Source: Saprospiraceae bacterium (GTDB lineage: Bacteria; Bacteroidota; Bacteroidia; Chitinophagales; Saprospiraceae). Taken from it: a DNA stretch of 64,000 nt. This document shows, in pieces, positions 9,212-57,691 of this stretch. The position numbers and the translations under genes are program-made. The notes under the pieces are model-generated. The model was not told where the DNA came from, did no database searches, and saw nothing but the letters and a program-made list of their open reading frames with translations. Location of the stretch: NCBI GenBank assembly GCA_027488935.1, contig JAIYAP010000007.1:19324-83323 (forward strand), read 5' to 3'. Position 1 is the stretch's first letter. The number at the start of each line of letters is the position of its first letter.

Positions 9212-11110
9212 ATGCATTTATTTTTAAATTGCATTTCCATACGCACAAACTGGTACGATAAGGTGGCTTGGCCCTTTATCGTACTCTTGTTCGTGTGCCC
9301 GGCGCTGCTTTTGGCCCAAAACCCCGGGACCGCCGCCCAGGATACCACCCAAAAACTGAAAATTGAAACGGCCCAACAAGTTGAGGGATTTTCAAGAAAC
9401 GGGCACGAATCGCGCAAACTTAGCGGCAACGTGCGGCTACGTCAGGAAAACACCCTGGTGTATTGCGATACGGCCATCATTGACGACTATACCAACAATG
9501 CGGTGTTGCGGGGCAATGTGGTATTGGAGCAAAGTGATTCTGTAAAAGTATTTGCCGATTCGGCGGTGTACCTCGCAGCGATTAAAACCAGCGATCTGTT
9601 TGGCAATGTGGTGTTGGTCAATGGCGTACAGGAGTTATTTACCGACAAACTGCGCTACGATATGGCCAATAAGATTGCCACTTACCACCAGGGCGCTACC
9701 ATGACCAATGGAAAAAGCCAGCTGGTAAGTCGACATGGGTATTATTTTGTCCAAAAGAAAGAGATTTACTTCAAGGGCGATGTGTTGGTGACCGATCCGG
9801 AATTTACGATGCGCACCGATACGATGCAGTTTAATACAGAAACCCAGACCGTTGGTTTTCTTGCGCCCACGTTGATCAGCCAGCGCAAAAGTAAAATATA
9901 TACCGAAGGCGGTTTTTATGACATTGAAAACCAGTTTGCGGAGTTTGATAAAAACCCGCAATACGAAAAAGACGGGCAGAAAGGCAAAGCGAAAAAAATG
10001 CGGTACAGCGGCAGCACCAAAGAGTATACGCTGGAAGGCGACGCTTATATTGACGATCGGGATAAAGGGCAAAAAGTGCAGGCCGATGTGGTGCGTTTTA
10101 ATTCGGAAACCGATGCCACGGTACTCAAGGGCAATGCACATTTTCAGGACAGCACCCGCGATATTACAGGTGCAGAGATTCGGTACAACAGCAAAGTCAA
10201 AGATTTTCAGTTGCTGGGCCGGGGTCGGCTGGTGGATCCGCCGAATATTATTGAGGCCGATTCACTCAACTTTAATGACGAATTAGGGAGTGGTTTGGCC
10301 CTTGGCAGCGTTATTTTTCAGGATACGGTGAATAATTACACCATTCTGTCATACCGGATGGATTACAACAAAAAGACGGAATACCTCAATGCTTTTGGCG
10401 GATTTGGGTCGGATGGTGTGGCAGGCAGGCCCATGATGAAAAACCTGATGGAAGGTGACACCTTATTTATGAGTGCCGACACCCTTATTTCGTACAAACC
10501 AGACAGCGCATCGACCAACCGGTTACTGATTGCCCATCGGGATGTGCGTATTTTTAAAAGCGACCTGCAGGCGGTGTGTGATTCGCTTTCGTTTAGTTCG
10601 GTCGATTCTATTTTTTGGTTTTTCAAATTGGATAGTATTCAGCAGCCTTTGCTTTGGAGCGACACCACCCAGTTTTCGGGCGACACCATTCGATTGTTGC
10701 TGAAAAACAATAAAATAGATCGCTTGTGGCTTACAAAAAACGCCTTTGTGATCAATTCAGAAGAGGGCATTTTATTCAATCAAATAAAGGGCCGTAACAT
10801 TACAACCACGTTTCGGGACAATGAGGCCAAAGAAATGTTTGTAGAAGGGAATGCGCAGGCCGTGTATTATGCTTTGGATGATAAAGGTGCCTATGTAGGA
10901 CTCAATGAGACTGCTTGTTCGGAAATGCGCATGTTTTTTGATAAAAAAAAGATAGAACTCATCAAGTTTTATGCAGAACCGGCGGGTACTTTTACCCCGA
11001 TGAGCAAGGCCGGTAAAGAGAACAAGCCCCTGGATGGCTTTTTTTGGGAGCAAAAACGTCGGCCGCGCAACATGGGCGATTTATTAAAGCAAAAAATTAC
11101 AATACGTTAA
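9212..11110 (+). CDS. OstA-like / LptA-domain organic solvent tolerance protein
   Basis: Repeating beta pattern GNVRLRQENTLVYCDTAIIDDYTNNAVLRGNV, GDAYIDDRDKGQKVQADVV; N-terminal hydrophobic segment. Confidence 0.8.
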   Translation: MHLFLNCISIRTNWYDKVAWPFIVLLFVCPALLLAQNPGTAAQDTTQKLKIETAQQVEGFSRNGHESRKLSGNVRLRQENTLVYCDTAIIDDYTNNAVLRGNVVLEQSDSVKVFADSAVYLAAIKTSDLFGNVVLVNGVQELFTDKLRYDMANKIATYHQGATMTNGKSQLVSRHGYYFVQKKEIYFKGDVLVTDPEFTMRTDTMQFNTETQTVGFLAPTLISQRKSKIYTEGGFYDIENQFAEFDKNPQYEKDGQKGKAKKMRYSGSTKEYTLEGDAYIDDRDKGQKVQADVVRFNSETDATVLKGNAHFQDSTRDITGAEIRYNSKVKDFQLLGRGRLVDPPNIIEADSLNFNDELGSGLALGSVIFQDTVNNYTILSYRMDYNKKTEYLNAFGGFGSDGVAGRPMMKNLMEGDTLFMSADTLISYKPDSASTNRLLIAHRDVRIFKSDLQAVCDSLSFSSVDSIFWFFKLDSIQQPLLWSDTTQFSGDTIRLLLKNNKIDRLWLTKNAFVINSEEGILFNQIKGRNITTTFRDNEAKEMFVEGNAQAVYYALDDKGAYVGLNETACSEMRMFFDKKKIELIKFYAEPAGTFTPMSKAGKENKPLDGFFWEQKRRPRNMGDLLKQKITIR

Positions 11111-11350
11111 AAATGAATAATTTATAAAGAAAAGCGACTTTTTAAAAGTATTGAAATGCCAAATTAAGCCTTTTTTAAATTCCGCGTTCTACTAAAATCT
11201 CGTATTATTCTATTACAAAATCGGCATTTTTCTTACTTTGCAGCCCACTCACTACCGGTTGCATTTTTATTCCATTGATTTCCTGTTTTATACAATGCGT
11301 TGCAAAACGCCGTGAATGGCGTATTTGTAAGGCATAAATATTTGCAACAC

Positions 11351-14300
11351 ATGCGGCTACCTTCTACCTTTCTTGCATTTTTCTGCTTTTCACAACTTTC
11401 CTTGGCCCAATGTCCGCCAGTCGGCTTTCCCGAAGCGGGCAATACTTGTTCCACCGCACCCATATTATGTGCCAACCTGGATGGTTATTGTAATACGATT
11501 AACAATAACAATATGGTGCAAAACTTTCCGGGATGCCCGGGATTTCAACTGAACAACGACGAATGGTTTGCCTTCTATGCCGGTTCTACCACCATCACCA
11601 TGATTGTTACGCCGAGCAACTGCACCAGCAATGGCAGCAACCAGGGCTTGCAGGCTGGTATTTACAGGCAATGTACCAGTAATCCGGTGGACTTGCAATG
11701 CTCTTGTACCACCAATCCCTTTACCCTTACAGCCAATAACTTTATTGTTGGACAAATTTACTGGATGGTGATTGACGGTTGTGGCGGTGATGTGTGTGAT
11801 TATTCGATCGATGTTACGGTCGGTTCTACCGTGGGTCAGCCACCTGCCAACCCGGGCCCGATCACTGGACCGGCCAATGTTTGTGAAGGAAGTACCACGA
11901 GCTATACCATTACGCCGCCGGTTGGGGCATCCATGTATAACTGGACCCTCACCCCGCCCATCGGCACGCTTACCCCTAATAACAATACGGTCAATATTGC
12001 CTGGGGTAACAATACCACTTCCGCAGAGTTGTGTGTCAGCACTTCGAATGCCTGTTATTCCAATCCAACTCAATCTTGTTATACCATTGATGTGGTGCCC
12101 AGACCAACGGCCACGCTTTCGGGCGCAGGGATTATCTGTGCGGGGGGCTCCGGGAATGTTCCCTTAACCGTGAATTTTACAGGAGAAGGTCCCTGGACCT
12201 TTATTTATCGAATCAATGGGGTAAATCAGCCTGCTGTCACCACCAGTTCCAATCCCTATACCATCACTGCCACCGCCCCGGGCACCTACACCCTAGCGAG
12301 TGTTACCGGTGGTGCTGCAACCTGTACGGGAACGGTTTCAGGTACCTCCGTGGTATCACAAACCAATATCACCACCACGACGGTCGTAACCCAGGCCATA
12401 TGTGGCCAAAGCAATGGCGCCATCAATTTAACCGCCAGCAACGGTGCCGCACCTTATACTTTTATCTGGTCGAGCGGACAAACAACGGAAGACCTGAGTG
12501 CCATCCCGGCGGGCACTTACACCGTAACCGTTACGGATAATAATGGCTGTACCAAAACGGCCCAGGCTACGGTCAATGACAACCCGGTCACCCTCAACTT
12601 AACCGCCGTTGTAACCGCCAATACGACGTGTATCAATGGAAATGGGGCGATAAACTTATCTGTAACCCCTGCCAATACCTACCAATACAACTGGTCAAAT
12701 GGCGCAACAACGGAAGATTTGGCAGATTTGATACCCGGCTCCTACACCGTGACCGTTACTTTTGGCGTAAACTGTACCAATACTGCTAGTTACACCATTA
12801 ACGACAATCCAAATCAGCCCAATATTACGGCAACCACCACCCAATCTACCTGCGATCAAACCAATGGCAGCATCAATGCTTCGGTCAGTGGCGGCGTGAC
12901 CCCTTACACCTATTTATGGTCGAATGGCGAGACAACGGAAGACTTAAGTAATTTGTTGGCAGGGACTTATACCCTGACGGTAACGGGCGCGAATGGTTGT
13001 ACCAGAACCTCAGAATTGACGATCTCAAACAACAATCCACCGATTAATGTAACGGCCGTGGTGGTAAACAACACCACTTGCCTGGGAGGAAATGGGAGTA
13101 TTAATGTATCGGTGGCACCTGCCAATACCTACACCTATCTTTGGTCGAATGCCGAGACAACACAAGATTTGAGTAACCTCCCACCAGGCACGTACTCGGT
13201 TACGGTTACCCAGGTGGGAAGTTGTACCCAAACGGCCGAATTTACCATCAATGACAACCCTGTTTTACCCAATATTGCACCCGTCGTTGTCAACACCACC
13301 TGCGATTTGGCCAATGGAAGCATTAGTTTATCGGTGAATGGGGGCGTAGCGCCTTATACGTATTTATGGTCTGGTGGTGAAACAACCAGTAGTTTGACCA
13401 ACGTCTTGGCCAACAGCTATCAGGTGACCGTGACCGGTGCGAATGGTTGTACTCAAACAGCCGATATCACTGTGAACAACAACAATCCACAGATCAATAT
13501 TACCGCCACCATCACCGCCAACACCATTTGTATACCAGGCAGCGGCAATGGCAGCATCAATGTATCGGTGAGCCCGATCAACCCGGCCTATACGTATATT
13601 TGGTCGAACGGATTTACCACGCAAGACTTGAACAACCTCGCGCCTGGAAATTACACCATCACGGTGAGCGCTGGTGGCACCTGTACAAATACGGCCGAAT
13701 TTGAGGTACCGGACAATCCGAATTTGCCCACGATTACCGGCAATTTTATAGAATCGACCTGTGATTTGGCTAATGGCAGCATTAATATCAGTGTAAATGG
13801 CGCCACAACGCCGTACACTTATCTTTGGTCGAATGGTGCCATTACCCAGGACATTACCGGTTTGGTTGCCAATGGATACACCGTTACCGTGACCGGAGCC
13901 AACGGCTGTACCAGCACTTCAGAATATAGCATTACGAACAACAATCCGCCCATTTCGGTCACCGCAGTAGTTAGTTCTAATACAACTTGCAATGCGAATG
14001 CCAACGGTGCAATTAATGTATCGGTGGTACCTGCAGGCACGTACACGTACCTATGGTCGAATGGATTGACTACCCAGGATTTAACGGGTTTGGCCGCTGG
14101 CTCCTACCAGGTAACGGTTACGGGCGCTGGTTCTTGTTCAGAAACTGCTTCGTTTGATGTGTCAGACAATCCGAATGTGCCTAATTTAAATTTTAATGGC
14201 ACTAATGCACGCTGCGGACTTAACAATGGCGCTGTTAATTTATCGGTTAGTGGCGGGGTAACACCTTATGTATATTTGTGGGCTAACAATGCAACCACGC

Positions 14301-17300
14301 AGGATCTGAGCAATGTGCCGAGTGGTTTTTACGAAGTGACGGTAACCGGTGCAAATGGCTGTACCAGTGTCGGGGATATCTTTGTAGATGATGAGGCAAT
14401 TCCGGTTAGCATAAATGGTGTTGTGACCGATAAAACTTCCTGCCTGACAGACAATGGCCGAATTGTGCTTCAATTATCGCCCTTCAATGTTACGGTAAGT
14501 TGGGCAAGTGGCAGCACGGCAACCACCCTGAACAACCTCGCGCCAGGTGATTACAGTGTAACCGTGAGCGCCGGAGGAACTTGCACCGAAACGGCTAATT
14601 TTACCATTATTGACGCTACAGAAATCCCAACCCTTACGACCGATGTAACCGCAGCCCGTTGTGGCTTACCCAATGGTGGAATTGATCTGGAAGTGAGTGG
14701 CAGCGTGGCTCCATATACCTATAAATGGTCGAACAACGCCAATACGCAAGATTTGACGAACAAATTGGCGGGTACTTTCACCGTTACCGTAACTTCGGCA
14801 ACCGGATGTAGCGCAACCACGGAAGTAACCATACCGATCAATGATTTATCCATCGTAATTTTTGGCGGCATCAGCGATAACACATCCTGCGGTCAACCGA
14901 ATGGATCCATTTTTATTACGGCCGATCCCATCGAGAATTACCAATACAAATGGTCGAACAATGCCATGGTGGCCGATTTATATAACCTGGCGCCCGGCAT
15001 GTACACCGTGACTGTAAGTTTTGGCGTAAGTTGTTCCAGTACCGCAACGTTCGAAATTTTAAATGCCGCTACAGCACCCAATTTGTCGGCTTCCGCAACA
15101 GCGGCCACCTGTAATTTGAACAACGGCAGTGCCCTGGCTAGTGCCAGTGGCGGGGAAGCGCCTTACACCTATAATTGGTCGAACAGCACTACCACCGCAC
15201 AGGCCAATAACTTGATACCAAGTGTATATACCGTTACGGTAACAGGCGCCAATGATTGTACGGTAACCGCAACCACGGTGGTGTCTAACAACAATATTGC
15301 CTTGAATATCAGCGGTATTGCGAGCGAAAACACCTCTTGTATCAACGGGAACGGTGCCCTGAATATCAGTGTTGTACCCGCAGGCACCTACACCTATGCG
15401 TGGTCGAACGCGGCCAATACCGCCAACATCAGTAACCTCGCACAAGGTGCTTATACGGTAACCGTAACGGCTGGGGTCAGCTGTTCTGCTACGGCAAGTT
15501 TTAATATTAATGACAATACACCCAACCCAAGCATTGTGCCCAATATTACGGCCGCGATTTGCAGCCAAAGTAACGGCGCAATTGATTTGACGGTCAGCAA
15601 TGCCAGTGGTCCTTACACCTACCTCTGGTCGAACAATGCTACTACGGAGGACTTGACTGGAATTCCACCCGGCAACTATGCGGTAACGGTGACTGCTTCC
15701 AATGGTTGCAAAGCCGATACCTTCCTGAATGTGGCCAACAACAGCACCAGTTTTAGTTTATCCGGCATAACAACGGCATTGACCAATTGTGCCGCGCCCA
15801 ACGGGGCCATTAATTTTACCGTTACACCGCCCGGCGCTTATTTAATTGCCTGGTCGAACAGCGCTACTACAGAAGATATCAGTCAGTTGGCAGCAGGCAT
15901 TTATACCGTTTCCGTCACGGAAGTAGGCAGTTGTGTGGCGTCCGCTACGTTTGTTGTAGATGATCAACGTATTTATCCAAGCAGCACCCAAACCATTGCT
16001 TCTGAAATATGCGGACTTCAAAATGGCAGCCTCCAATTGACGACCCAGGGCGGCACCACACCTTATCAGTTTAGCTGGTCTTCCGGCCAAACCTCCGAAG
16101 ACCTGAATGCAGTTGCAGCCAATACGTACACGGTAACCATAACGGATGCCAATTTCTGTACGGCTACCGCTACCGGTACCATTCCAGGAAATACGGTTGG
16201 TTTTGCCATTGCCGGCACGCCTCAGCCTAATACTTCTTGTGTGAGTTCTAACGGCGGCATCGACTTAACAATCAGTCCGGCAGATCCCGGATTTGGCCTG
16301 TCGTACACCTATGCCTGGTCGAACAGTCCACTTACCCAAGATCTGAATGCGGTGGCAGGCGGCACTTATGTAGTGACCGTGAGTGCGGGCGGCACTTGTA
16401 CCAATGTGGCAAGTTTCAATATTCCCGACGACTCAAATCCGCCACAATTGGCTGCGGGCATTACACCTGCTTTTTGCGGACAAAATAGTGGTGGTATTGA
16501 TTTGAATACCAGCGGAAGCCAGGCACCTTACACCTATACCTGGTCGAATAGTGGCCTGGAAGAAGATTTAAGTGGCGTTGTATCCGGCGATTATACGGTT
16601 ACTGTAGTTGGGGCCGACGGATGTAAAACCATAGATCAATTTACGATACCAGAAAATACCCTTTTACCTAGTATTGCCGGGGCAGCAACTCCGCTTACTT
16701 CTTGTATCAGCAACAATGGCGCGATTAGCATTAATGTAAGCCCGGTGGGACTTTACACCTATAAATGGTCGAACGGCGCTACCCAGCAAAACCTCGCAAG
16801 CCTGCCCACCGGCGTGTACACGGTAACGGTAAATGGCGGAGGCGCTTGTATTTCGACGGCTACTTTTACCGTAGACAATGCCACGCAAACCGTAGATTTG
16901 AGCAGCACCATCACGAATATTCTTTGTTTTGGCAATGCAACCGGCGCCATCGATGTGTCGGTAAATGGCGGAACCGGACCATACACTTATGTGTGGCAAC
17001 CAGCCGTACCGGGCAACTTGCAAGATTTAAATAACCTGAGTCCGGGCACTTACCGATTGACCACCACCGATGCCAATGGATGTTCTGCCAATGCGGTTTA
17101 CGTCGTTGCGCAACCTAATGCTGCTTTGCAAATTAATTGCGTTGCGAGCAATACGGTTTCTTTCCCGGGCGGATCAGATGGATCAGGTAGTTTGAGCATT
17201 TCGGGTGGGACAGCGCCTTATACGGTGACTCCTTCCGTGGGTAATCCGCAAACCGGCGTACCGGCGGGCGTATTGAATTTCAACAACTTACCGGTTGGCT

Positions 17301-26382: not shown

Positions 26383-26437
26383 GTCCCTCGAATGAAATTC
26401 GAGGGGTACAAGATGGTAGATGTGATGGCGTGTTAAG

Positions 26438-26564
26438 AACAACGTGGGTGGTTATCCTGTGTAAAAATGTTCGGAAGCCGTTTCGGTACCTTTGACACGT
26501 CGGAAGCGTAGAAAAAACGCTTCCGACGTGTCAAAGGTGCCGAAACGAGGAGCACCGCGAAAAC
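26438..26564 (+). repeat. Element A copy 1: hairpin repeat
   Basis: Arms 26480-26508 and 26518-26546 (29 nt, one G-T-type mismatch); shares flank gttcggaagccg...gaggagcaccgcgaaaac with other copies. Confidence 0.85.
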
Positions 26565-26582
26565 GTGCGTATTCTATAGGAT

Positions 26583-26728
26583 TACTGAAGGCAAAAGTGG
26601 TACATCTTTCGTTAATCTATTCATGATCAGGTTGATAAAGTTAAAAATTGCAGATACTTGGAGGTTTTGTGCTTCTGGTTTATCTTTGCTAGATGGACGC
26701 GGCAGGTACGCATATTTACGTGTTAGTG
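26583..26728 (+). repeat. Element B copy 1: promoter-bearing repeat ending in GTTAGTG
   Basis: tcatgatcaggttgataaagttaaaaattgcagatacttggaggttttgtgcttctggtttatctttgc shared with four other sites; TTG 26658-26660, N20, TATCTTTG 26681-26688. Confidence 0.85.
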
Positions 26729-26779
26729 GCAATTTTACCGAGACACATACACATATGTAATATTAAAAAAGCAAAAAAA

Positions 26780-28165
26780 ATGAAACCAACAATTTTAATT
26801 ATCCTTCTTTTCATAAGACAAATAGCATTTGGCCAAGACAATATTCATAAAATGGATAGCTTATTGTCTTCATTTTACAGCAATGGAAATCTCAATGGGA
26901 ATGTCTTAATCGCGGAAAAGGGAAAAGTGATTTATAAAAAATCTTTTGGCCTTGCAAATGAAACGACAAAGGAAACATTGAACGAAAATTCCGTTTTTGA
27001 GTTGGCATCGGTATCTAAACAATTCACAGCAATGGCAATTGTAATACTTAAAGAAAAAGGCCAATTGAACTACGAAGATAAAATTACAAAATATATTCCT
27101 GAATTGGCCGACTATCATGATATCACCATCAGAAATTTGCTAAACCATACAGGCGGATTGCCTGACTATATGGAAATAATGGATAGCACATTTGACAAAA
27201 ATACAATTGCTACCAACAAAGACATCATTTCAACATTTGCGAAGCTAAAACCACCAGTATTGTTTGAACCAAATACAAAGTGGGAATACAGTAATACCGG
27301 GTATGCTTTGTTGGCTTCTATTATTGAAAAAGTATCAGGGATGTCGTATGGTGATTATTTACACAAAGTCATTTTTAAACCCCTGGAAATGACAAATACT
27401 TTTGTTTACAGAAGAAGGTACGAACCTAAAAAAATGGTTAATTATGCTTATGGCTATGTCTATTCTGATAGTTTAAAAAAATATGTTTTACCGGACGACT
27501 TGGCCGAAACAAAAATCGTTGTATGGCTGGATGGAATTGTTGGAGATGGAACAGTAAACTCAACAGCAATTGATTTACTGAAATGGGACAGAGCGTTGTA
27601 TACCGACAAACTAATTTCAAAAGAAAGTAAAAACGAGATTTTTACTTCAGCGGAAATAAGTGATAAATCAAAAACAAATTATGGCTTTGGTTGGTTCATC
27701 GAAGACAATGGCGTTTATGGAAACATAGTAAACCATACAGGAGGCTGGCCAGGATATATGACCTTTATTGACAGGCATATACAAAATGATTATACTATAA
27801 TAGTGCTTTTGAATTTCGTTAACAATGATACATACATACCAATCGCAGATTTGAGGCGTATTCTTTACAAAATTGAACCTGTAAAATTTATTGAACTTAA
27901 GAAGGAAGAAATAGAAAAATTTGCAGGTGATTATATAAATAGTAAAGGGAAAGTGGTGAAACTGATTTTTGAAGACGGAACACTTTACAGAACAACTGAT
28001 GGCGGAGAAAAATTTGAACTGAAAGCCATTTCAGCCACTAAATTTCAAATGATGAAATACAGTCCTGATATTTTTTACGAATTTATTATTACGGACAATA
28101 AAGTTGTAAAATATATAATGACACAGCCTGAGTTGAAAATTATACGAGAATTAATCAAACAATAA
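26780..28165 (+). CDS. Serine hydrolase, class C beta-lactamase-like
   Basis: SVSK (SxxK) in FELASVSKQFTAMAIVILKEKGQLNYEDKI; YSN in WEYSNTGYALLASIIEKVSG; HTGG in VNHTGGWPGYM. Confidence 0.88.
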   Translation: MKPTILIILLFIRQIAFGQDNIHKMDSLLSSFYSNGNLNGNVLIAEKGKVIYKKSFGLANETTKETLNENSVFELASVSKQFTAMAIVILKEKGQLNYEDKITKYIPELADYHDITIRNLLNHTGGLPDYMEIMDSTFDKNTIATNKDIISTFAKLKPPVLFEPNTKWEYSNTGYALLASIIEKVSGMSYGDYLHKVIFKPLEMTNTFVYRRRYEPKKMVNYAYGYVYSDSLKKYVLPDDLAETKIVVWLDGIVGDGTVNSTAIDLLKWDRALYTDKLISKESKNEIFTSAEISDKSKTNYGFGWFIEDNGVYGNIVNHTGGWPGYMTFIDRHIQNDYTIIVLLNFVNNDTYIPIADLRRILYKIEPVKFIELKKEEIEKFAGDYINSKGKVVKLIFEDGTLYRTTDGGEKFELKAISATKFQMMKYSPDIFYEFIITDNKVVKYIMTQPELKIIRELIKQ

Positions 28166-28170
28166 AAACT

Positions 28171-28317
28171 GCCACTAACACGGGTCTGGCAAAAGTGGTG
28201 GTTCCGTGCTCCGCAAACACATTTTAGGTTAATCGAAGTTTGGTTCTCCGCATCAATCCCGATAATTATCGGAATGGTGAAAATCGCCACCTTCGCAAAG
28301 CCCGAAACCGTTAGCGG
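28171..28317 (+). other. attC-like site, type D copy 1
   Basis: gccactaacacgggtctggcaaaagtgg ... ccaccttcgcaaagcccgaaaccgttagcgg; complementary ends; near-duplicate at 48524. Confidence 0.6.
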
Positions 28318-28919: not shown

Positions 28920-28926
28920 AAACCGA

Positions 28927-29060
28927 ACCATTAACACGGGTTTTGCGTCAGGCGGGCAGACGCGCATACTTGGAGGTTTGTGCTTCTATTCAAGTTCAGT
29001 GCTGGTTGACAGTTTTGTGCTCCGAAACCCGCCCGAACGCAAAGCCCCAAACCGTTAGCC
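28927..29060 (+). other. attC-like site, type C copy 1
   Basis: cattaacacgggttttgcgtcaggcgggc ... cccgcccgaacgcaaagccccaaaccgttagcc; arms pair with extrahelical bases. Confidence 0.65.
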
Positions 29061-30736: not shown

Positions 30737-30745
30737 AACAACGAA

Positions 30746-30880
30746 CGGCTAACAGCGGTTTTGCGTCAGGCGGGGTCCAGTGCTTCGTATGACGCTTTTT
30801 GCTATATTTAAACTGTGGTGCTTCGTATCAAGTGTGGTGCTAAAATTCCTACCCGAACGCAAAGCCCCAAACCGTTATGT
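30746..30880 (+). other. attC-like site, type C copy 2
   Basis: cggctaacagcggttttgcgtcaggcgggg ... acccgaacgcaaagccccaaaccgttatgt. Confidence 0.6.
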
Positions 30881-31320: not shown

Positions 31321-31776
31321 ATGATACGCACAGCAAAAGCACATTGGGAAGGTGATTTAAAAGAAGGCAAGGGGTCCCTTACTACAGCAAGCAATATTTT
31401 AAAACAAACAAACTACAGTTTTAAAACACGGTTTGAAGATGGGGCAACAGGAACAAACCCTGAGGAATTATTGGCCGCAGCTCATGCTGGATGTTTTACG
31501 ATGGCGGTAGCGGCCATGCTCACGCAAAAAAAAATAACTCCAACAGCGTTGGATACCGAAGCAACCTTAACCATGGAAGGATTAAATATTAAAAATATTC
31601 ATTTGTCTATTACAGGTTTAGTACCAGGAATTACTGCTGATGATTTTACAGCAATTACAAAAGATGCAGAAAAAAACTGCTTGATTTCAAAGGTTTTAAA
31701 CATCCCTATTATTTCTGAAGCACATTTATACCAAGATTTAAATGGATTTGAAGGATGGATGGATAAAAAAAATTGA
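31321..31776 (+). CDS. OsmC family protein
   Basis: AKAHWEGDLKEGKGSLTTASNIL...GTNPEELLAAAHAGCFTMAVAAML...EKNCLISKVLN. Confidence 0.92.
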   Translation: MIRTAKAHWEGDLKEGKGSLTTASNILKQTNYSFKTRFEDGATGTNPEELLAAAHAGCFTMAVAAMLTQKKITPTALDTEATLTMEGLNIKNIHLSITGLVPGITADDFTAITKDAEKNCLISKVLNIPIISEAHLYQDLNGFEGWMDKKN

Positions 31777-31846
31777 TTTTCAATGGATTAGAGGACATCT
31801 GTTTTCATAACCACGTTGCGTTGACCATAAAAATCTGATAGATAAA

Positions 31847-37796: not shown

Positions 37797-38080
37797 TTGC
37801 CGCATCTCCCCGGCGGGCATAGTTATTTTTTCAATACCGACGTGGCCATGATGGGCAAAATGGGTTTTGATATTGTGGTCGACAAACTCCAGCCCGAAGA
37901 ACTTACCTTGATCCTGTTAAGAAATGCCGGATCAAAGAACTAAATGTTTATCCCGGAACGAGCTCCACCATCGACGCGAGGGCCTTATATTCGGGCGAAT
38001 ATCTGATGAATGTCGGTTTTAATCCCGACATGAACCTGAAACGTACCAGCGTGATTTTAGAAATAAATGCAGTGAAATGA
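37797..38080 (+). pseudogene. GH36 alpha-galactosidase remnant (two pieces, different frames)
   Basis: ...SYFFNTDVAMMGKMGFDIVVDKLQPEELTLI then [49 protein letters not shown] whose stop overlaps the galT ATG. Confidence 0.6.
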
Positions 38081-39111
38081 CCAAGGAATTAAACGCATCC
38101 CCGCACCGCCGTTACAACCCGCTCACCGATAGTTGGGTGCTTGTATCGCCCCACCGCGCACAACGTCCCTGGCAGGGGCAAGTGGAAAAATTGCCGGCCG
38201 ACACACGTCCGGCGCACGATCCGAATTGTTACCTCTGTGCGGGCAATGTGCGGGCCAATGGCGCACAAACACCTGATTATGAGGATGTTTTTGTGTTTGA
38301 TAATGACTTTGCAGCCTTATTGCCTCCTCTTCCCTCAGGGGAGGCAAAGGGGGATCTGGGACCTCTTTTTATTGCCCGTCCTGAGCGCGGCATCGCACGT
38401 GTGATCTGCTTTTCGCCGCGCCACGACCTGACCATGGCTCAAATGGAAACCGTCGATATCCGCAAAGTGGTAGACGCCTGGGTAGACGAATACCGCACGC
38501 TCGGCGCCGAATCGTTTATTAATTACGTCCAGATATTTGAAAACAAAGGCGCCATTATGGGCTGCTCCAACCCGCACCCGCACGGACAAATCTGGGCGCA
38601 GGAGAGCGTGCCCGATGAGCCGATGAAAAAGCAAATAGCACAGTTAAAATACTGGGAAACAAACAAATCGTCCTTGCTTGCGGACTATATCAAAGAGGAA
38701 TTGGTGCTTACCGAGCGCATTTTGTTTGAAAACGAGCATTTTGTAAGCCTTGTGCCGTTCTGGGCTGTTTGGCCTTTTGAAGCGATGATCGTGCCCAAAC
38801 GCCATCTACCCCGCATCACGGACATGACGGACGACGAGCGTAACGGTTTGGCCGATGCCTACCGCCGATTGACTGCTTTGTACGACCGTCTTTTTGATAC
38901 TTCGTTCCCGTATTCTTCCGGTATCCACCAGGCGCCGACAGATGGGGAAGCGCATCAGGAATGGCATTTTCACTTTGTATTTTACCCGCCGCTGCTGCGT
39001 TCGGCGACGGTGAAAAAATTCATGGTGGGTTATGAAATGCTGGCCAATCCACAGCGGGATATTACGCCGGAAAAAGCGGCCGAGATGCTGCGGGACTTGC
39101 TGGAGACTTAG
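38077..39111 (+). CDS. galT: Galactose-1-phosphate uridylyltransferase
   Basis: [25 protein letters not shown]...CYLCAGN...[20 protein letters not shown] (HPHxQ). Confidence 0.95.
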
Positions 39112-39300
39112 GTTTTTTACCCGAAAACGCGGGCAGGTTACGAACCCGTAAAAGAAATTGTAGGCGACGGCATCACAACCTACTCCACAGATTTTGCATT
39201 TTGTGTTATTGGGGTACCGAGCAATACTAGGCATATTTACACGTTGGCAGTTATGGTGCGACAACCGTCCATCGAAAGAAAAACGAAAAATGACAAGGCA

Positions 39301-39950: not shown

Positions 39951-40163
39951 CATTAACACGAGTTTGACAAAATGTTGTGTGCAATCTAGTAAAAAAACCT
40001 AATTTTGTATTGTTGCTAAAGTCACAAAGCGCTATATCTTTTAATCAATCTATTCATGATCCCGTTGATAAAGTTAAAAATTGCATATACTTGGAGATTT
40101 GGTGCTTCTGGTTTTATCTTTACTAGACAGATGCGGCAAGTACGCATATTTACGTGTTGCCTG
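39951..40163 (+). repeat. Element B copy 2 with attC-like left end
   Basis: cattaacacgagtttgac at left, tacgcatatttacgtgttgcc at right (aacacg/cgtgtt); -7 here is TATCTTTA (last base differs). Confidence 0.75.
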
Positions 40164-41423: not shown

Positions 41424-42635
41424 ATGCTTTTTTCGTTTAGTTTGAAAAGTTCGATTTTACTGATTTTCTTTTTACACGGTATTGTTTTTTCCACATTACT
41501 ATTAATTAAGGGATTACAAAACGAAAATAAATCAAGCCTTTGGCTCAGTTTATTCACAATCCTATGTTCCTTGTATATAGCACCTTTCATGTTTGGATAT
41601 GCTGGATGGTATGCCCAACAGCCTTATAGAAACATTCTTTTTTATATTCCCTTTCAACAATTATTTTTGCTGCCCCCGGTATTGTATTTCTACATCAAAG
41701 CCTTACTTGACAAGTCATTTCAGTTTTCTAAAAGAGATTACATTCATTTTTTACCATCAGCCATTTATTTGATTTACTCAATTGTTGTTTTTCTCACAGA
41801 TAAAGTAATTTTGAATGAATATTACTTTTATAAAGATGGCAAAGACAAAGATTTTTCATTGTGGTACCAGATAACTGGATTATGCTCATTAGGTTATTAC
41901 TTAGCGCAAAGCCTTAAAACTTACTATAGGTATAAAGCATTAACTTATAATGTAGTGAGTTTTGCTGATACCGTAATGTTCAAGTGGGCTAAACGATTTC
42001 TAATAGCATTTTTGATGCTTATGGCTATTCGAATATTATTTTTTATTGTCAACCCTGAGTGGGATGAATTTGGAAAAAAGTTTTGGTATTACGTATGTTT
42101 TTCAATCCTCTTCTACTACATGTCAATAAGCGGTTATACAAATTCAATATTATCAGCCACCTCTTTTCGAGATTCCTTACTAAATTTTGATGCGGATTTC
42201 AAATTTGAAGCAGATAATCCCAGTAAAATTGAACTTCCAATATCAGTACTTGATAAGGACAATTTAGCAGAAGACAAAAATGAAATACCAGACTTTGATT
42301 TATGGAAGGAAAAAATAGAAGCGCTGATGCTGGTTGATAAAATGTATGAGAACCCAGCACTCGTTATATCAGACCTAAGCAACAAATTAGGTACGCACTC
42401 AAAAAAAATCTCACAGGTGATCAATCAAGGGTACAATATGAACTTTAACGATTTTGTAAATCACTATAGAATAAGCGCCGTAAAACAAAAAATTGAGGAA
42501 GGGGAACATACCATACAAACATTACTTAGCCTTGCATTTGAATGCGGCTTTAACTCTAAATCTACTTTTAACAGGGCATTCAAGCGGTCCACTTCATTAA
42601 GTCCGAAAGAATATATTGAAAAACACTACGTATAG
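41424..42635 (+). CDS. AraC-type HTH regulator with N-terminal multi-TM domain
   Basis: Hydrophobic N-terminal half; C-terminal LSNKLGTHSKKISQVINQGYNMNFNDFVNHYRISAVKQKI...LAFECGFNSKSTFNRAFKRSTSLSPKEY. Confidence 0.9.
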   Translation: MLFSFSLKSSILLIFFLHGIVFSTLLLIKGLQNENKSSLWLSLFTILCSLYIAPFMFGYAGWYAQQPYRNILFYIPFQQLFLLPPVLYFYIKALLDKSFQFSKRDYIHFLPSAIYLIYSIVVFLTDKVILNEYYFYKDGKDKDFSLWYQITGLCSLGYYLAQSLKTYYRYKALTYNVVSFADTVMFKWAKRFLIAFLMLMAIRILFFIVNPEWDEFGKKFWYYVCFSILFYYMSISGYTNSILSATSFRDSLLNFDADFKFEADNPSKIELPISVLDKDNLAEDKNEIPDFDLWKEKIEALMLVDKMYENPALVISDLSNKLGTHSKKISQVINQGYNMNFNDFVNHYRISAVKQKIEEGEHTIQTLLSLAFECGFNSKSTFNRAFKRSTSLSPKEYIEKHYV

Positions 42636-42805
42636 TCAATGCAAAGTGGTTATAAAAACAGTAGGCTTCTAATCCATTGAAAATCAAATTTTTTTATCCA
42701 TCCATCCTTCAAATCCATTTAAATCAGGGTATAAAATAGGTGTCAAATCAGGATTTAAAGCGAAATATGGTTTGCAAAAAGTAAAAATTTGCAAAAAAAT
42801 TAGAA

Positions 42806-45088: not shown

Positions 45089-45474
45089 ACCGCTAACACG
45101 GATTTGGTAAAAGTGGGGTTCAATACACCAAAAGTGCCGCTGGCTGTTAACAACAACGTGGGTAATCTTCCTGTGTAAAAATATTCGGAAGCCGTTTCGG
45201 CACCTTTGCCACGTCGGAAGCGTCGAAAAAACGCTTCCGACGTTGCAAAGGTGCCGAAACGAGGAGCACCGCGAAAACATTTCCGCCGCGCGACGGAATA
45301 TTGCATACTGCACATTTTATATTGTTGCTGAAGTCACAAAGCACTATATCTTTTAATCAATCTATTCATTATCAGGTTGTTAAAATTAAATATTGCAGAT
45401 AGCTGGAGCTTTGGTGCTTCTGGTCTATCTTTGCTATACAGATGCGATAAGTATGCATATTTACGTGTAATCGG
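45089..45474 (+). repeat. Composite site: attC-like left end + element A copy 2 + element B copy 3
   Basis: cgctaacacggatttggtaaaagtgg; A hairpin arms 45194-45222/45232-45260; B with TATCTTTG 45426-45433; right end tttacgtgtaa. Confidence 0.75.
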
Positions 45475-45602: not shown

Positions 45603-48398
45603 ATGAAAACATCACCACCAAAAAAATCTGTTTCAAAAATAGCAGCAGATAAAACAGAACAGAAGCTAAATGAGATTGGAAAAATTAATGAAATAATTGT
45701 CGTATCTGACGACATAACCGGCCAAAAACAAGCATCACAGTATGCCCGGAGTTTAATTGAAGCGAGCTTAGATCCTCTTGTTACCATTAATGCCGATGGA
45801 AAAATAACAGATGTGAATGAAGCATCCATAAAAGTTACGGGAGTTGAACGTGAAAAATTGATTAATACTGATTTCTCCAATTATTTTACGGAACCGCAAA
45901 AAGCAGAAGAGGGTTACCAGCAGGTCTTTGAAAAAGGTTTTGTGGCTGATTATCCACTAACGATAAAACATAAAAACGGAACGTTGACAGATGTTTTATA
46001 CAATGCTTCTGTTTATAAAGATGATAAAGGCACAGTTCTTGGTGTTTTTGCAGCAGCGAGAGATGTTACATCACAAAAACAAATTGAAGATGAACTCCTT
46101 AAAACCCAAGAACGCCTAAATGTAGGCTTGAAAATTGCCAATATTGCGCTTTCAGAAATAAATTATATAACCAATACCGTACAACTTTCGCCTGAAAGTG
46201 CTGCCATGTATGGCTTTCCTAAAAATCAATTGGAAGCTACTCGCCAACAGATGCACGATACTTTTCATCCTGCTGTCAAAGCAGCGTTAGAAGCTCAAAT
46301 TATCATTGCCATGAATCCCGATAGTGGCGGCTACATGGCATTAGAACATCCCATTGTGTTGCCTTCGGGAGAGGTTCGTTGGTTAAAGGTTAATAAACAA
46401 TTCTTCTATGACCATTCTACTCAACCAGCCAAGCCCGTTTATAGCATTTTGGTTTCTCAAGATATTACCGAGAGAAAAGAATCTTCACAATACGCCCGTA
46501 GTTTGATTGAAGCAAGTTTAGACCCTCTTGTTACCATTAGTGCCGATGGAAAAATAACAGATGTGAATGAAGCATCCATAAAAGTTACGGGAGTTGAACG
46601 TGAAAAATTGATTGATACTGATTTCTCCAATTATTTTACTGAACCGCAAAGAGCAGAAGAGGGTTATCAGCAGGTCTTTGAAAAAGGTTTTGTGGCTGAT
46701 TATCCCCTAACGATAAAACATAAAAATGGAAATTTGACAGATGTGTTATACAATGCTTCTGTTTATAAAGATGATAAAGGCAATGTTCTTGGGGTTTTTG
46801 CAGCCGCTCGGGATATTACCGCACGCAAAAAGGCAGAAGAAAAAATAAAAGAAAGTGAAGTGGAAGTAAGGAAAATAAAGGAACAACTAGAACTAAGTAT
46901 TACAGCAGGAAAAATAGGGGTATGGCATTGGGATGTAAAAAATGATTTGCTTTATTGGAGCAAGGAACAACATAAAATTTACGGGTTCAATAAATCGGAA
47001 ACGGTAACAAGTTCTGCACAATTCAATGCGCTTATTGTTTCAGGGGATATGAAGCGTATTCAAGACGACCTAAGTGCAAGCAATAAATTGGAGCATGAAT
47101 ATGACTTTCAGATTATTAGAAAAAATGATGGCGAATTAAGGTGGATAAAATCCAGAGCAAAAAATACATTCGACGCACAAGGTATGCTTCAATATATTTC
47201 CGGTGTGAACATAGATATAACTGAACAGAAGTTGTTTGAAGGAAAATTGATAGAAGCAAAGTCATCTGCAGAAAATGCGGCTAAATCCCGTCAACAGTTC
47301 TTATCTAACATGAGCCACGAAATTCGTACACCATTAAATTCCATTTTAGGGTTTACAAATGTGTTATTGAAAACTGAATTAGGGTCACAACAAAAAGAAT
47401 TTGTAGAAGCTATAAATACAAGTGGCAAGTCTTTAAACCTGCTAATAAATGATATACTTGATTTGGCAAAAGTAGATGCCGGTAAAATGACATTTGAAAA
47501 ACATCCCATTGAAATTCGGAAATCTATAACAGCACTACTACATTCTTTTGACATGAAAATAAGAGAAAAGAATTTAGAACTTGTTGAAGAATATGATAAC
47601 AAAATACCACCTATATTAGTGGGAGATTCATTGCGACTAAATCAAATTATCTTAAATCTTATAAGTAATGCCGTAAAATTTACACACAAGGGAAAAATTA
47701 AACTAACCATCAAATTACTACACGAAGACAAAGAAAATGTGACCATTGAATTTGTAGTTTCCGATTCAGGAATTGGCATTGCTGAAAATAAATTAAATTC
47801 CATTTTTAATCTTTTTGAACAGGCTGAAATTAACACATCTACTTCTTATGGAGGCACAGGGTTGGGGCTTTCTATTGTAAAGCAATTAGTAGAAGGTCAA
47901 GGAGGAAGTGTTAGCGTAAAAAGTAAACTTGGGGAAGGTTCTGCATTTAGCTTTATACTGCCTTTTGGTAAAGCAAATTTAGAACTTGAAGAAGAAATTA
48001 TTCTATTAAACCCTGTTTCAGAAATTAAAAACCTGCGGGTATTAGTAGCCGAAGATGTAGCATTAAATCAATTACTAATTAAGATTATACTGAATGATTT
48101 TGGATTTGAACATGAAATAGTAGGCAATGGAAAATTGGCAATAGATAAAATTCAAACCAATACTTACGATATTATTTTGATGGATTTACATATGCCCGAA
48201 ATGAACGGCTTTGAGGCAACAGAATACATACGTAAAACATTGAAATCTCACATTCCAATCATTGCATTGACAGCAGATGTAACTACGATGGACGTTTCTA
48301 AATGTAAAGAATTTGGAATGGATAGTTACATTTCCAAACCAATAGAAGAGAAATTACTGTACAATAAAATAGTTGAATTAGTAAAAAAGAATAAATAA
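45603..48398 (+). CDS. PAS-domain hybrid sensor histidine kinase with C-terminal receiver
   Basis: Duplicated PAS/PAC; HisKA FLSNMSHEIRTPLNSILGFTN; HATPase GTGLGLSIVKQLVEGQGG; REC VLVAEDVALNQLL...DIILMDLHMPEMNGFEATEYI. Confidence 0.93.
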   Translation: MKTSPPKKSVSKIAADKTEQKLNEIGKINEIIVVSDDITGQKQASQYARSLIEASLDPLVTINADGKITDVNEASIKVTGVEREKLINTDFSNYFTEPQKAEEGYQQVFEKGFVADYPLTIKHKNGTLTDVLYNASVYKDDKGTVLGVFAAARDVTSQKQIEDELLKTQERLNVGLKIANIALSEINYITNTVQLSPESAAMYGFPKNQLEATRQQMHDTFHPAVKAALEAQIIIAMNPDSGGYMALEHPIVLPSGEVRWLKVNKQFFYDHSTQPAKPVYSILVSQDITERKESSQYARSLIEASLDPLVTISADGKITDVNEASIKVTGVEREKLIDTDFSNYFTEPQRAEEGYQQVFEKGFVADYPLTIKHKNGNLTDVLYNASVYKDDKGNVLGVFAAARDITARKKAEEKIKESEVEVRKIKEQLELSITAGKIGVWHWDVKNDLLYWSKEQHKIYGFNKSETVTSSAQFNALIVSGDMKRIQDDLSASNKLEHEYDFQIIRKNDGELRWIKSRAKNTFDAQGMLQYISGVNIDITEQKLFEGKLIEAKSSAENAAKSRQQFLSNMSHEIRTPLNSILGFTNVLLKTELGSQQKEFVEAINTSGKSLNLLINDILDLAKVDAGKMTFEKHPIEIRKSITALLHSFDMKIREKNLELVEEYDNKIPPILVGDSLRLNQIILNLISNAVKFTHKGKIKLTIKLLHEDKENVTIEFVVSDSGIGIAENKLNSIFNLFEQAEINTSTSYGGTGLGLSIVKQLVEGQGGSVSVKSKLGEGSAFSFILPFGKANLELEEEIILLNPVSEIKNLRVLVAEDVALNQLLIKIILNDFGFEHEIVGNGKLAIDKIQTNTYDIILMDLHMPEMNGFEATEYIRKTLKSHIPIIALTADVTTMDVSKCKEFGMDSYISKPIEEKLLYNKIVELVKKNK

Positions 48399-48523
48399 TC
48401 ATTGACGAAAAAAAATCTAACTTTTTGCAACGCCTATCAATTATTTACAAGCCAACGCAGCCGACAGTGCAAACAATTGCTTAAGTTTAAAACGACACAG
48501 CATCGGACAAATAGAAGCACGAA

Positions 48524-48667
48524 CCGATAACACGGGCTGGGCAAAAGTGGCGGTTCAGTGCTCCGCAGACACGTTTGTGGTTAATCAAACATTGGTTCTC
48601 CGCATCAATCCTGATAATTATCGGGATGGTGAAAATCGCTTCCTTCGCCAAGCCCTGAACGTTAGCA
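48524..48667 (+). other. attC-like site, type D copy 2
   Basis: ccgataacacgggctgggcaaaagtggcgg ... cttccttcgccaagccctgaacgttagcagc; near-duplicate of 28171-28317. Confidence 0.6.
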
Positions 48668-49394: not shown

Positions 49395-49528
49395 AGTTAA
49401 CAACAACGTGGGTAGGGTATCCAGTGCAAAATGTTCGGAAGTCGTTCCGTTCCCCCTGACACGTCGGAAGCGTTTCGAACGCTTCCGACGTGTCAGGGGG
49501 AACGGAACGGAGCGTACCGCGAAAACAT
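49395..49528 (+). repeat. Element A copy 3: hairpin repeat with different stem sequence
   Basis: Perfect 32-nt arms 49443-49474 / 49478-49509. Confidence 0.85.
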
Positions 49529-49566
49529 TCCGACACCTCGCGGCGGAATATTGGGCACTACGCATT

Positions 49567-49728
49567 TTATATTATTGCTGAAGTCACAAAGCGCTACATC
49601 TTTATTCAATCGATTCATGATCAGGCTGATAAGGTTAAAAATTGCAGATATTTGGAGGTTTTGGTGCTTCTGGTTTATCTTTGCGCGACGGACTGGACGC
49701 AACAAATACGCATATTTCCGTGTTATGT
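49567..49728 (+). repeat. Element B copy 4 (promoter-bearing)
   Basis: TTG 49652-49654, N21, TATCTTTG 49676-49683; right end tttccgtgttatg. Confidence 0.85.
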
Positions 49729-52819: not shown

Positions 52820-53017
52820 CAGCACATAATACCGGCTTGTGAAAAACCTAAGTATTTAAAGCTTTTTTGTTGCTAAAGTAACGAAACGGTACATCTTGAA
52901 TCAATTAACTCATGATCAGGTTGATAAAGTTGAAAATTGTAGATACTTGGAGCTTTGGTGCTTCTGGTTTATCTTTGCTAGACAGATGTGGCAAGTAGGC
53001 ATATTTATGAGTTACCT
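52820..53017 (+). repeat. Element B copy 5 (promoter-bearing)
   Basis: TTG 52947-52949, N20, TATCTTTG 52970-52977; right end gagttacctgc. Confidence 0.8.
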
Positions 53018-54530: not shown

Positions 54531-54550
54531 ACGTTGGACAAAAGCACAGC

Positions 54551-54682
54551 AGGTAACAGCGGTTTAGCGTTATGGCGGGTGAAATGCTTCGTTGACACAT
54601 TTGTACTATATTTGAACTGTGTGCTTCGTATCAACTTTTGTGGTGTAAATCCGCCACTACGCCAAGCCGCAAAACGTTCGTG
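54551..54682 (+). other. attC-like site, type C copy 3
   Basis: aggtaacagcggtttagcgttatggcgggt ... atccgccactacgccaagccgcaaaacgttcg. Confidence 0.55.
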
Positions 54683-54719: not shown

Positions 54720-55478
54720 ATGACAACATATCATATACTAAACGGAGACTGTTTGGCTGACCAATTAAAACAAACAAAAATTAATCAGGACTTTATTGTT
54801 TGTAGGGAATGCCTAATTGACGGTAATTTATATGCGGACAACATCGCTGACTTTTGGGCAATTCGAGCAAAATTTATAGCTGACACCTACAACGTTTCGA
54901 CCGAAGAATATTTTATTAAAACAGTAAGTGAATTTGAAAAACTAAAAAATCTACCTGACAATTCCGAAGTTTGTCTTTGGTTTGAAAACGATTTGTTTTG
55001 TCAGACAAATATGTGGTTTGTAATCTCAATTCTTGCAAATTACCCGAAACTTAAAATCTTTCGAGTGTTTCCGAAAATTGAAAATAATGCAGACACTTGG
55101 AAAGGCTTTGGAATTGCCAATGCTGAAAAACTTGAACAGGCTTATTATTCAAAAATTCAATTTACAGCCGATGACATTAAATTAGGAAAAAATTTATGGA
55201 TAGCTTACCAAAATGGCGACTTAGACAAACTTAACAAGTTAGCGAAATCCCAATCCGACTGTTTTGAATATTTAGAAGAAGTTTGTCAAGCACATATTGA
55301 CAGATTTCCATTCGACAAATCGTTAGGCAGACCTGAAAAGGTGGTAAAAGAAATAATTGAAACCAAGTCGAAAGAATTTCAAATTGTTTTTTCGGAATTT
55401 GCAGACAGAGAAGGAATTTATGGATTTGGAGATTTACAACTTAAAAACATATATGACAGACAGATGCACAGCCACTAA
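54720..55478 (+). CDS. DUF1835 domain-containing protein
   Basis: YHILNGDCLADQLKQTKINQDFIVCRECLIDGNLYADNIADFWAIRAKFIADTYNVSTEEYF...EVCLWFENDLFCQTNMWFVISIL. Confidence 0.85.
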   Translation: MTTYHILNGDCLADQLKQTKINQDFIVCRECLIDGNLYADNIADFWAIRAKFIADTYNVSTEEYFIKTVSEFEKLKNLPDNSEVCLWFENDLFCQTNMWFVISILANYPKLKIFRVFPKIENNADTWKGFGIANAEKLEQAYYSKIQFTADDIKLGKNLWIAYQNGDLDKLNKLAKSQSDCFEYLEEVCQAHIDRFPFDKSLGRPEKVVKEIIETKSKEFQIVFSEFADREGIYGFGDLQLKNIYDRQMHSH

Positions 55479-55604
55479 CACGGGTTTTGCGTCAGGCGGG
55501 CAGAAGTGCATACTTGGAGCGTTGTGCTTCTATTCAAGTTCAGTGCTGGTTGACAGTTTTGTGCTCCGAAACCCGCCCGAACGCCAAGCCCAAAAACGTT
55601 AGCT
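55472..55604 (+). other. attC-like site, type C copy 4
   Basis: ccactaacacgggttttgcgtcaggcgggc ... acccgcccgaacgccaagcccaaaaacgttagct; overlaps the stop codon of the upstream gene. Confidence 0.65.
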
Positions 55605-57329: not shown

Positions 57330-57559
57330 TACTTCAGTAAATACAGTAAACGGCTTTGTTGCATGAACATTTTTTATTTCGTTTTTCATGATTCTGCCAA
57401 ATATTTCCAACAGGAGGCAGCGGTTCCGGGCTGGACGTTGTAAAACATCCAACCTGCACCAATCCCTGCCCATTGACGGCAAGGATAGTGACAATTATTA
57501 CCAATGATAACCCTCGTTGTTAATATGCATTGGGGCTTTTGTCTAACAAAACACTGGGT

Positions 57560-57689
57560 GTTCACAACAACGTGGGTGATCCTGTGTAAAAATGTTCAGA
57601 AGCCGTTTCGGCACCTCTGACACGTCGGAAGCGTCGAAAAAACGCTTCCGACGTGTCAGAGGTGCCGAAACGGGGAGCACCGCAAAAAC
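57560..57689 (+). repeat. Element A copy 4: hairpin repeat at right edge of accessory region
   Basis: Perfect 31-nt arms 57603-57633 / 57643-57673. Confidence 0.85.
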
Positions 57690-57691
57690 AA

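Follow-up and report, generated by a model that had tools for sequence, protein, structure and literature searches.

A stretch of 64,000 nucleotides from a Saprospiraceae genome (hereafter the window) carries, from ~26.4 to 57.7 kb, many small unrelated genes (beta-lactamase family, DinB, AraC, glyoxalase, TfoX_N, Crp-like), several of which stand directly behind copies of a repeat here called B. At least one likely chromosomal gene, GalT-like by reading (38077-39111), breaks up this cassette-rich stretch. The locus raises the question of what B is: a promoter that moves on its own, the end of a gene cassette, or the site at which cassettes enter. The initial annotation had taken it for a mobile promoter module with which each cassette would do without a distant Pc.

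All five copies of B were found in the window where they had been reported. With B1 as the query against its own genome, the other window copies were recovered at E values of 8e-38 to 1e-29 and 81-85% identity, far beyond chance. There are about ten good copies genome-wide, five of these inside the window and five further ones, together with weaker copies, on contigs C58, C87 and C46. The repeat itself is real, but the consensus string quoted for it proved to be a composite that no single copy matches throughout, and B starts further upstream than first noted, near the GCATTTTGTATTGTT repeat. The ten genomic copies align as a block of ~150-170 bp with invariant TGGA, TATCTTT and GCATAT, and their internal spacing is constant (TATCTTTG-N18-TACGCATATTTACGTG), with 23 instead of 18 nucleotides in B4. 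At the 3′ end, the likeness among copies stops sharply at an exact G|TT, or G|TA in B3 (Table 1). All window copies face into the next gene, in agreement with the orientation first described, and on folding B does not form the long stem of an attC-type site.

Most window copies of B start near the second GCATTTTGTATTGTT repeat, between -145 and -177 relative to the core. A different repeat, D4, is a long near-perfect hairpin with arms of the AAAATGTTCGGAAGCCG...CGGCTTCC type (window positions 26432-26565, 45145-45279, 49395-49527 and 57556-57690). It starts at G|TT in cassette register ahead of B1, B3 and B4, has a copy with no B at the island's right end, and in one copy also precedes B in another genome (G023). 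Upstream modules differ between B copies: on contig C58 (L027, 2070-2480 and 3980-4390), two copies share an extra upstream repeat of ~400 bp, which in one case begins at the G|TT of an attC-type site.

Many genes of the cassette region are separated by repeats of ~135-145 bp with the form NNNTAACA...GTTTTGCG...CGCAAAGC...CGTTA, several of which form, on folding, an imperfect hairpin whose internal loop is unequal. At least six are attC-type sites by sequence and fold. In integron cassettes, the first arm of the attC site (R'') is reverse-complementary to the start of the cassette. The same anatomy is present here, as the first arm of the attC-type repeat matches, in reverse complement, the opening bases of its own cassette. 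The cassette behind B1 begins with GTTAGTGGC and has GCCACTAAC in its attC-type site, and the cassette behind B5 pairs GTTACCTGC with GCAGGTAAC; the extent of the match for B1, B2, B3 and B5 is given in Table 1. No convincing reciprocal arm was seen at B4, at the three copies on contig C58 (C58a-c) or at several other dispersed copies, which suggests that the cassettes there have degraded or belong to a different type. Scanning freely for 8-mer reciprocity proved too noisy on its own (16 pairs against 8.7 in shuffled sequence), and for this reason only pairs anchored at mapped cores were used. B occupies the position where an attI site would be, ahead of the first cassette in each mini-array.

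Table 1 Repeat B, cassette and attC-type features of the window (window coordinates; core G, final base of the B copy)
Feature	Position	Strand	Evidence
B1 attI-like site with Pc-type promoter (putative)	26572..26722	+	TTG 26658-26660; TATCTTTG 26681-26688; core G 26722; reciprocal R'' at 28171, 8/8 bases
Cassette behind B1, beta-lactamase family gene	26723..28312	+	ends in attC (28171-28314)
attC-type site, imperfect hairpin	28925..29060	+	sequence, fold
attC-type site	30737..30880	+	first arm reciprocal to cassette start 29055
Degenerate B-like site, short, without promoter	~39185..39243	+	upstream of cassette at 39244; also present in G023
B2 attI-like site	40001..40156	+	TTG 40091-40093; TATCTTTA 40115-40122; core G 40156; reciprocal arm 5/6
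B3 attI-like site	45303..45467	+	CTG 45403-45405; TATCTTTG 45426-45433; core G 45467, G|TA; R'' near 48522, 6/6
attC-type site, end of B3 cassette	48521..48664	+	R'', fold
B4 attI-like site, 5-nt insert	49553..49722	+	TTG 49652-49654; TATCTTTG 49676-49683; core G 49722; no convincing R''
B5 attI-like site	52866..53011	+	TTG 52947-52949; TATCTTTG 52970-52977; core G 53011; R'' at 54549, 8/8
attC-type site, end of B5 cassette (Crp-like and NAD-epimerase-like genes)	54546..54681	+	reciprocity, fold
attC-type site	55467..55604	+	sequence, fold

Other features of the stretch include two duplications. One is inverted, 105 nt long and 90% complementary, and covers the end of an OsmC-like gene (31725-31829 and 42631-42735), and the other is direct, 300 nt long and 90% identical, within a sensor-kinase-like gene behind B3 (45696-45995 and 46446-46745). 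An Rfam scan of 24-60 kb gave weak matches only, far under the family cut-offs.

In order to find relatives of B, we searched with a sequence model of the repeat, which matched in the window's genus and in two other genera of Saprospiraceae. Across genome contigs, a strict B pattern gave no match, whereas the matches to a loose pattern were for the most part scattered and probably due to chance, apart from L097, a contig as long as the G023 locus. In three Saprospiraceae genomes (G224, G321 and G230), one B copy comes immediately downstream of a tyrosine recombinase gene of ~350-355 codons and in line with it, with a gene for a single-stranded DNA-binding protein (SSB) between the two in G224 and G321. 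By linkage and by sequence, B stands in these three genomes as a putative attI site adjacent to an integrase at the head of an array. On the 8,371,686-bp chromosome of G224, the integrase-linked B is followed by cassettes with exact reciprocal ends (L143, 13014/14879, 15007/15740, 15929/16916 and 17044/18535), and G224, which has kept an integrase, carries more B copies ~20 kb and 367 kb away. Within the window's genus, three genomes (G012, G050 and G020) carry an orthologous integrase, ssb and an attI-like region with two GCGCATTTTGTATTGT-type repeats and a core like CATATTNACGAG|TTA, and three others (G007, G002 and G055) have a shorter integrase/attI-like arrangement without ssb. The ssb gene lies between integrase and attI-like site in several genomes (L143 12466-12804, L146 16594-16932, and L156-L158), and an SSB encoded beside such a site could be relevant for folded single-stranded attC sites.

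The arrangement extends across the phylum. Related recombinases occur in 72 of 396 sampled Bacteroidota genomes, and in most of the 30 best loci an equivalent core, its position chosen by eye from the sequence, was located within ~50-330 bp. Sequence was sufficient for 27 integrase-linked first cassettes, of which 17 show an exact reciprocal arm, against 1 of 668 cross pairs with the starts of other cassettes, and cassettes ending in an attC site whose R'' is reciprocal to the cassette start are thus a feature of these loci. A plasmid of Chryseobacterium sp. SNU WT5 (NZ_CP041688.1) provides an example in which the recombinase, annotated as 'site-specific tyrosine recombinase/integron integrase', is followed by a core and then by a cassette whose reciprocal ends lie at 7295/8373 of L207. 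This combination of domain-less integrase (see below), core and cassettes (NZ_CP041688.1 10035-23048, L207) indicates that the system can be plasmid-borne.

The proposal of a Bacteroidota-type promoter signature at the cassette entry points held up. The -7 box consensus of Bacteroidota sigma-A is TAnnTTTG (PMC9723704), and four copies (B1, B3, B4 and B5) match it exactly as TATCTTTG, with TATCTTTA in B2. A TTG lies 20-21 bp upstream of the box not only in B1, B4 and B5, as reported, but also in B2, with CTG in B3. TAnnTTTG is also found between the integrase stop and the core in 16 of 29 attI-like regions (3.3 expected from shuffles), against 5 on the other strand of these regions; the 13 without the exact motif include those of G224, which reads TATCTTTA, and G510. 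In Saprospiraceae-type sites (G012, G050, G020 and G353) the motif ends 33-34 nt before the core, compared with 34 in B, and in most flavobacterial-type sites ~78-85 nt before it. The middle two bases are free, being CT, AT, TT and GT in the four Saprospiraceae-type sites and TC in B. A fixed position with variable middle bases favours promoter constraint over a merely inherited word. TATCTTTA is the common form in genus g33 and is read by G224 and most G321 copies, which suggests that the last base of the -7 box is not strict and that B2 is not necessarily a broken copy. B is best read as containing a built-in Pc-type promoter, TTG-N20-TATCTTTG, which would be active toward the first cassette. 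The idea that every cassette carries its own mobile promoter in place of Pc was not supported, since B heads mini-arrays, and cassettes behind an attC (starts at 28313, 29055, 48662, 54679 and 55603) have no B of their own.

An integrase gene beside the array in the same genome, as seen in G224, is absent from the window's genome: the best match to the integrase is 37% identical, and no TIGR02249 match exceeds the cut-off. A 587-amino-acid recombinase encoded on C87 was considered as the missing integrase and rejected, being 37% identical and having no B in the sequence read downstream. C87 also carries a broken 3′ end of ssb together with an attI that is 78% identical to G224 over 326 bp, and this pair is, judging from the alignment, a relic of a full platform. 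At the B2 locus, the flank in G023 is 88% identical to the window up to the core, followed by a different cassette; as the comparison reads, B has stayed and the cassette differs. The idea that G023 shows the clean empty site of the 26.4-38.0 kb island was set aside, as the right edge is not clean.

A 587-amino-acid tyrosine recombinase with a long N-terminal part occurs together with several isolated fragments of its C-terminal 60-95 residues (L028, G000 contig C52, ~9600-17040; L021 15827-17590; C87 84955-85227). The fragments lie between unrelated ORFs (GTPases, TIR-like), as though the 3′ end of the integrase gene had taken up one element after another.

The B-linked integrases lack a part of IntI. 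The interval between KGxKDR and HxLRH spans 58 residues in P0001 and close relatives, and 58-61 across the set, versus 100 in IntI1, so that an IntI-specific insertion of ~42 residues is missing from the family. Alignment to IntI4 (2a3v) breaks at the position of the insertion and picks up again to the C-terminus. The NCBIfam models remain under their cut-offs, TIGR02249 with 183-208 bits against a cut-off of 265. The integrases have an extra N-terminal stretch of ~80 residues and are read towards the array. The additional domain regarded as the mark of integron integrases was looked for in this family and is absent, which counts against reading B as attI, as the insertion is held to be necessary for recombining folded attC sites. 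IntegronFinder and the archaeal integron survey depend on this domain (PMC9668308), and integron searches demand it (PMC9668308, PMC9024848), so domain-less integrases would be passed over and standard tools would probably call these arrays CALINs. In the literature searched, we found no publication describing such integrases, which is not proof of novelty. In a tree, IntI1 groups with the domain-less integrases against two Xer proteins, yet it does so on a long branch, and for that reason we draw no claim from it.

Some properties of B would also be expected of a stand-alone, MITE-like promoter element that inserted upstream of genes and plays no part in cassette recombination, as B occurs at many scattered places with roughly the same 5′ edge and with an outward-facing promoter signature, in a genome without the integrase. 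We consider this improbable, given that the 3′ end of B is always a cassette core, where cassettes begin, that the same element adjoins integrase genes in other genera, and that neither terminal inverted repeats nor target duplications were noticed. It is more improbable still that B is a variant attC site, that is, the end of a preceding cassette and not an entry site. B does not have the attC stem. In relatives it comes after an integrase or ssb gene, not a cassette gene, and C58c comes after a core gene, uvrB (named by reading). In favour of the attC reading, B2 and B5 sit immediately behind a truncated R''-like arm belonging to the preceding cassette, and G|TT is also the end of every attC site.

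The dispersed copies could instead be leftovers of several complete platforms (integrase-ssb-attI), each minus its integrase, rather than the product of attI spreading alone. The remnants of the ssb 3′ end upstream of the G224 copies and the C87 copy are consistent with this, but no ssb remnant is present at the window copies, most of which start near the second GCATTTTGTATTGTT repeat, at the distances from the core given above, and we rate it slightly below an even chance. This alternative bears only on where the copies came from and leaves the attI reading of B untouched; the copies may stem from several full platforms or from independent transfers of the site.

Our preferred reading, with a probability of roughly 0.8 on the strength of sequence comparison, is that each B is a primary, attI-like site of recombination that contains a Pc, and that the copies are dispersed heads of arrays that have lost their integrase. 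Against this reading count the lack of an orthologous integrase in this genome, the copies such as B4 with no convincing reciprocal arm, and the 13 integrase-linked regions without an exact TAnnTTTG. At the G|TT that closes B on its 3′ side, an integron-type tyrosine recombinase would recombine B with the attC of a circular cassette; the cassette would land directly behind TTG-N20-TATCTTTG and be transcribed, and later cassettes would join through attC sites to give mini-arrays. The original platform would be integrase-(ssb)-attI-cassettes, as still seen in relatives, with an integrase without the IntI-specific insertion; in the window's own genome, the integrase would have been lost and the B copies left behind. 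We lean slightly towards a broader proposal of a widespread Bacteroidota integron system with integrases lacking the IntI-specific domain (a relict of integron origins or a second mode of attC recognition), whose attI-Pc sites have spread as independent heads of new arrays. If domain-less integrases are functional, many Bacteroidota CALINs would have an enzyme that has gone unrecognised, and if they still serve attI/attC arrays, the proposal on the IntI-specific domain becomes directly testable. Dispersed attI-Pc copies would offer one genome several expression-ready entry points.

Among known systems, PMC9024848 lists only one complete integron for Bacteroidetes proper, in Salinibacter. B appears to work like the attI and Pc of class 1 and chromosomal integrons, being a non-palindromic site that ends in G|TT, comes first in the array, has a predicted promoter directed into the first cassette, and in relatives adjoins a tyrosine recombinase gene. 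It differs from them in its many dispersed copies without an integrase, and the related integrase differs in lacking the IntI-specific domain, in its ~80 additional N-terminal residues and in being read towards the array, with ssb in between in several genomes. We place B outside the canonical IntI integrons because that domain was searched for and is absent. ORF-less promoter-carrying gene cassettes and cassette-borne promoters, among the work cited in PMC8618304, are similar in being non-coding units in cassette register and possible promoter sources within an array, whereas no attC belongs to B itself, which matches the integrase-linked attI sites of relatives. The window arrays resemble CALINs in having attC-bordered cassettes in a genome without an IntI gene, but their mini-arrays keep attI-like heads with a predicted promoter, and relatives offer a plausible integrase, one that would go uncounted under the CALIN definition.
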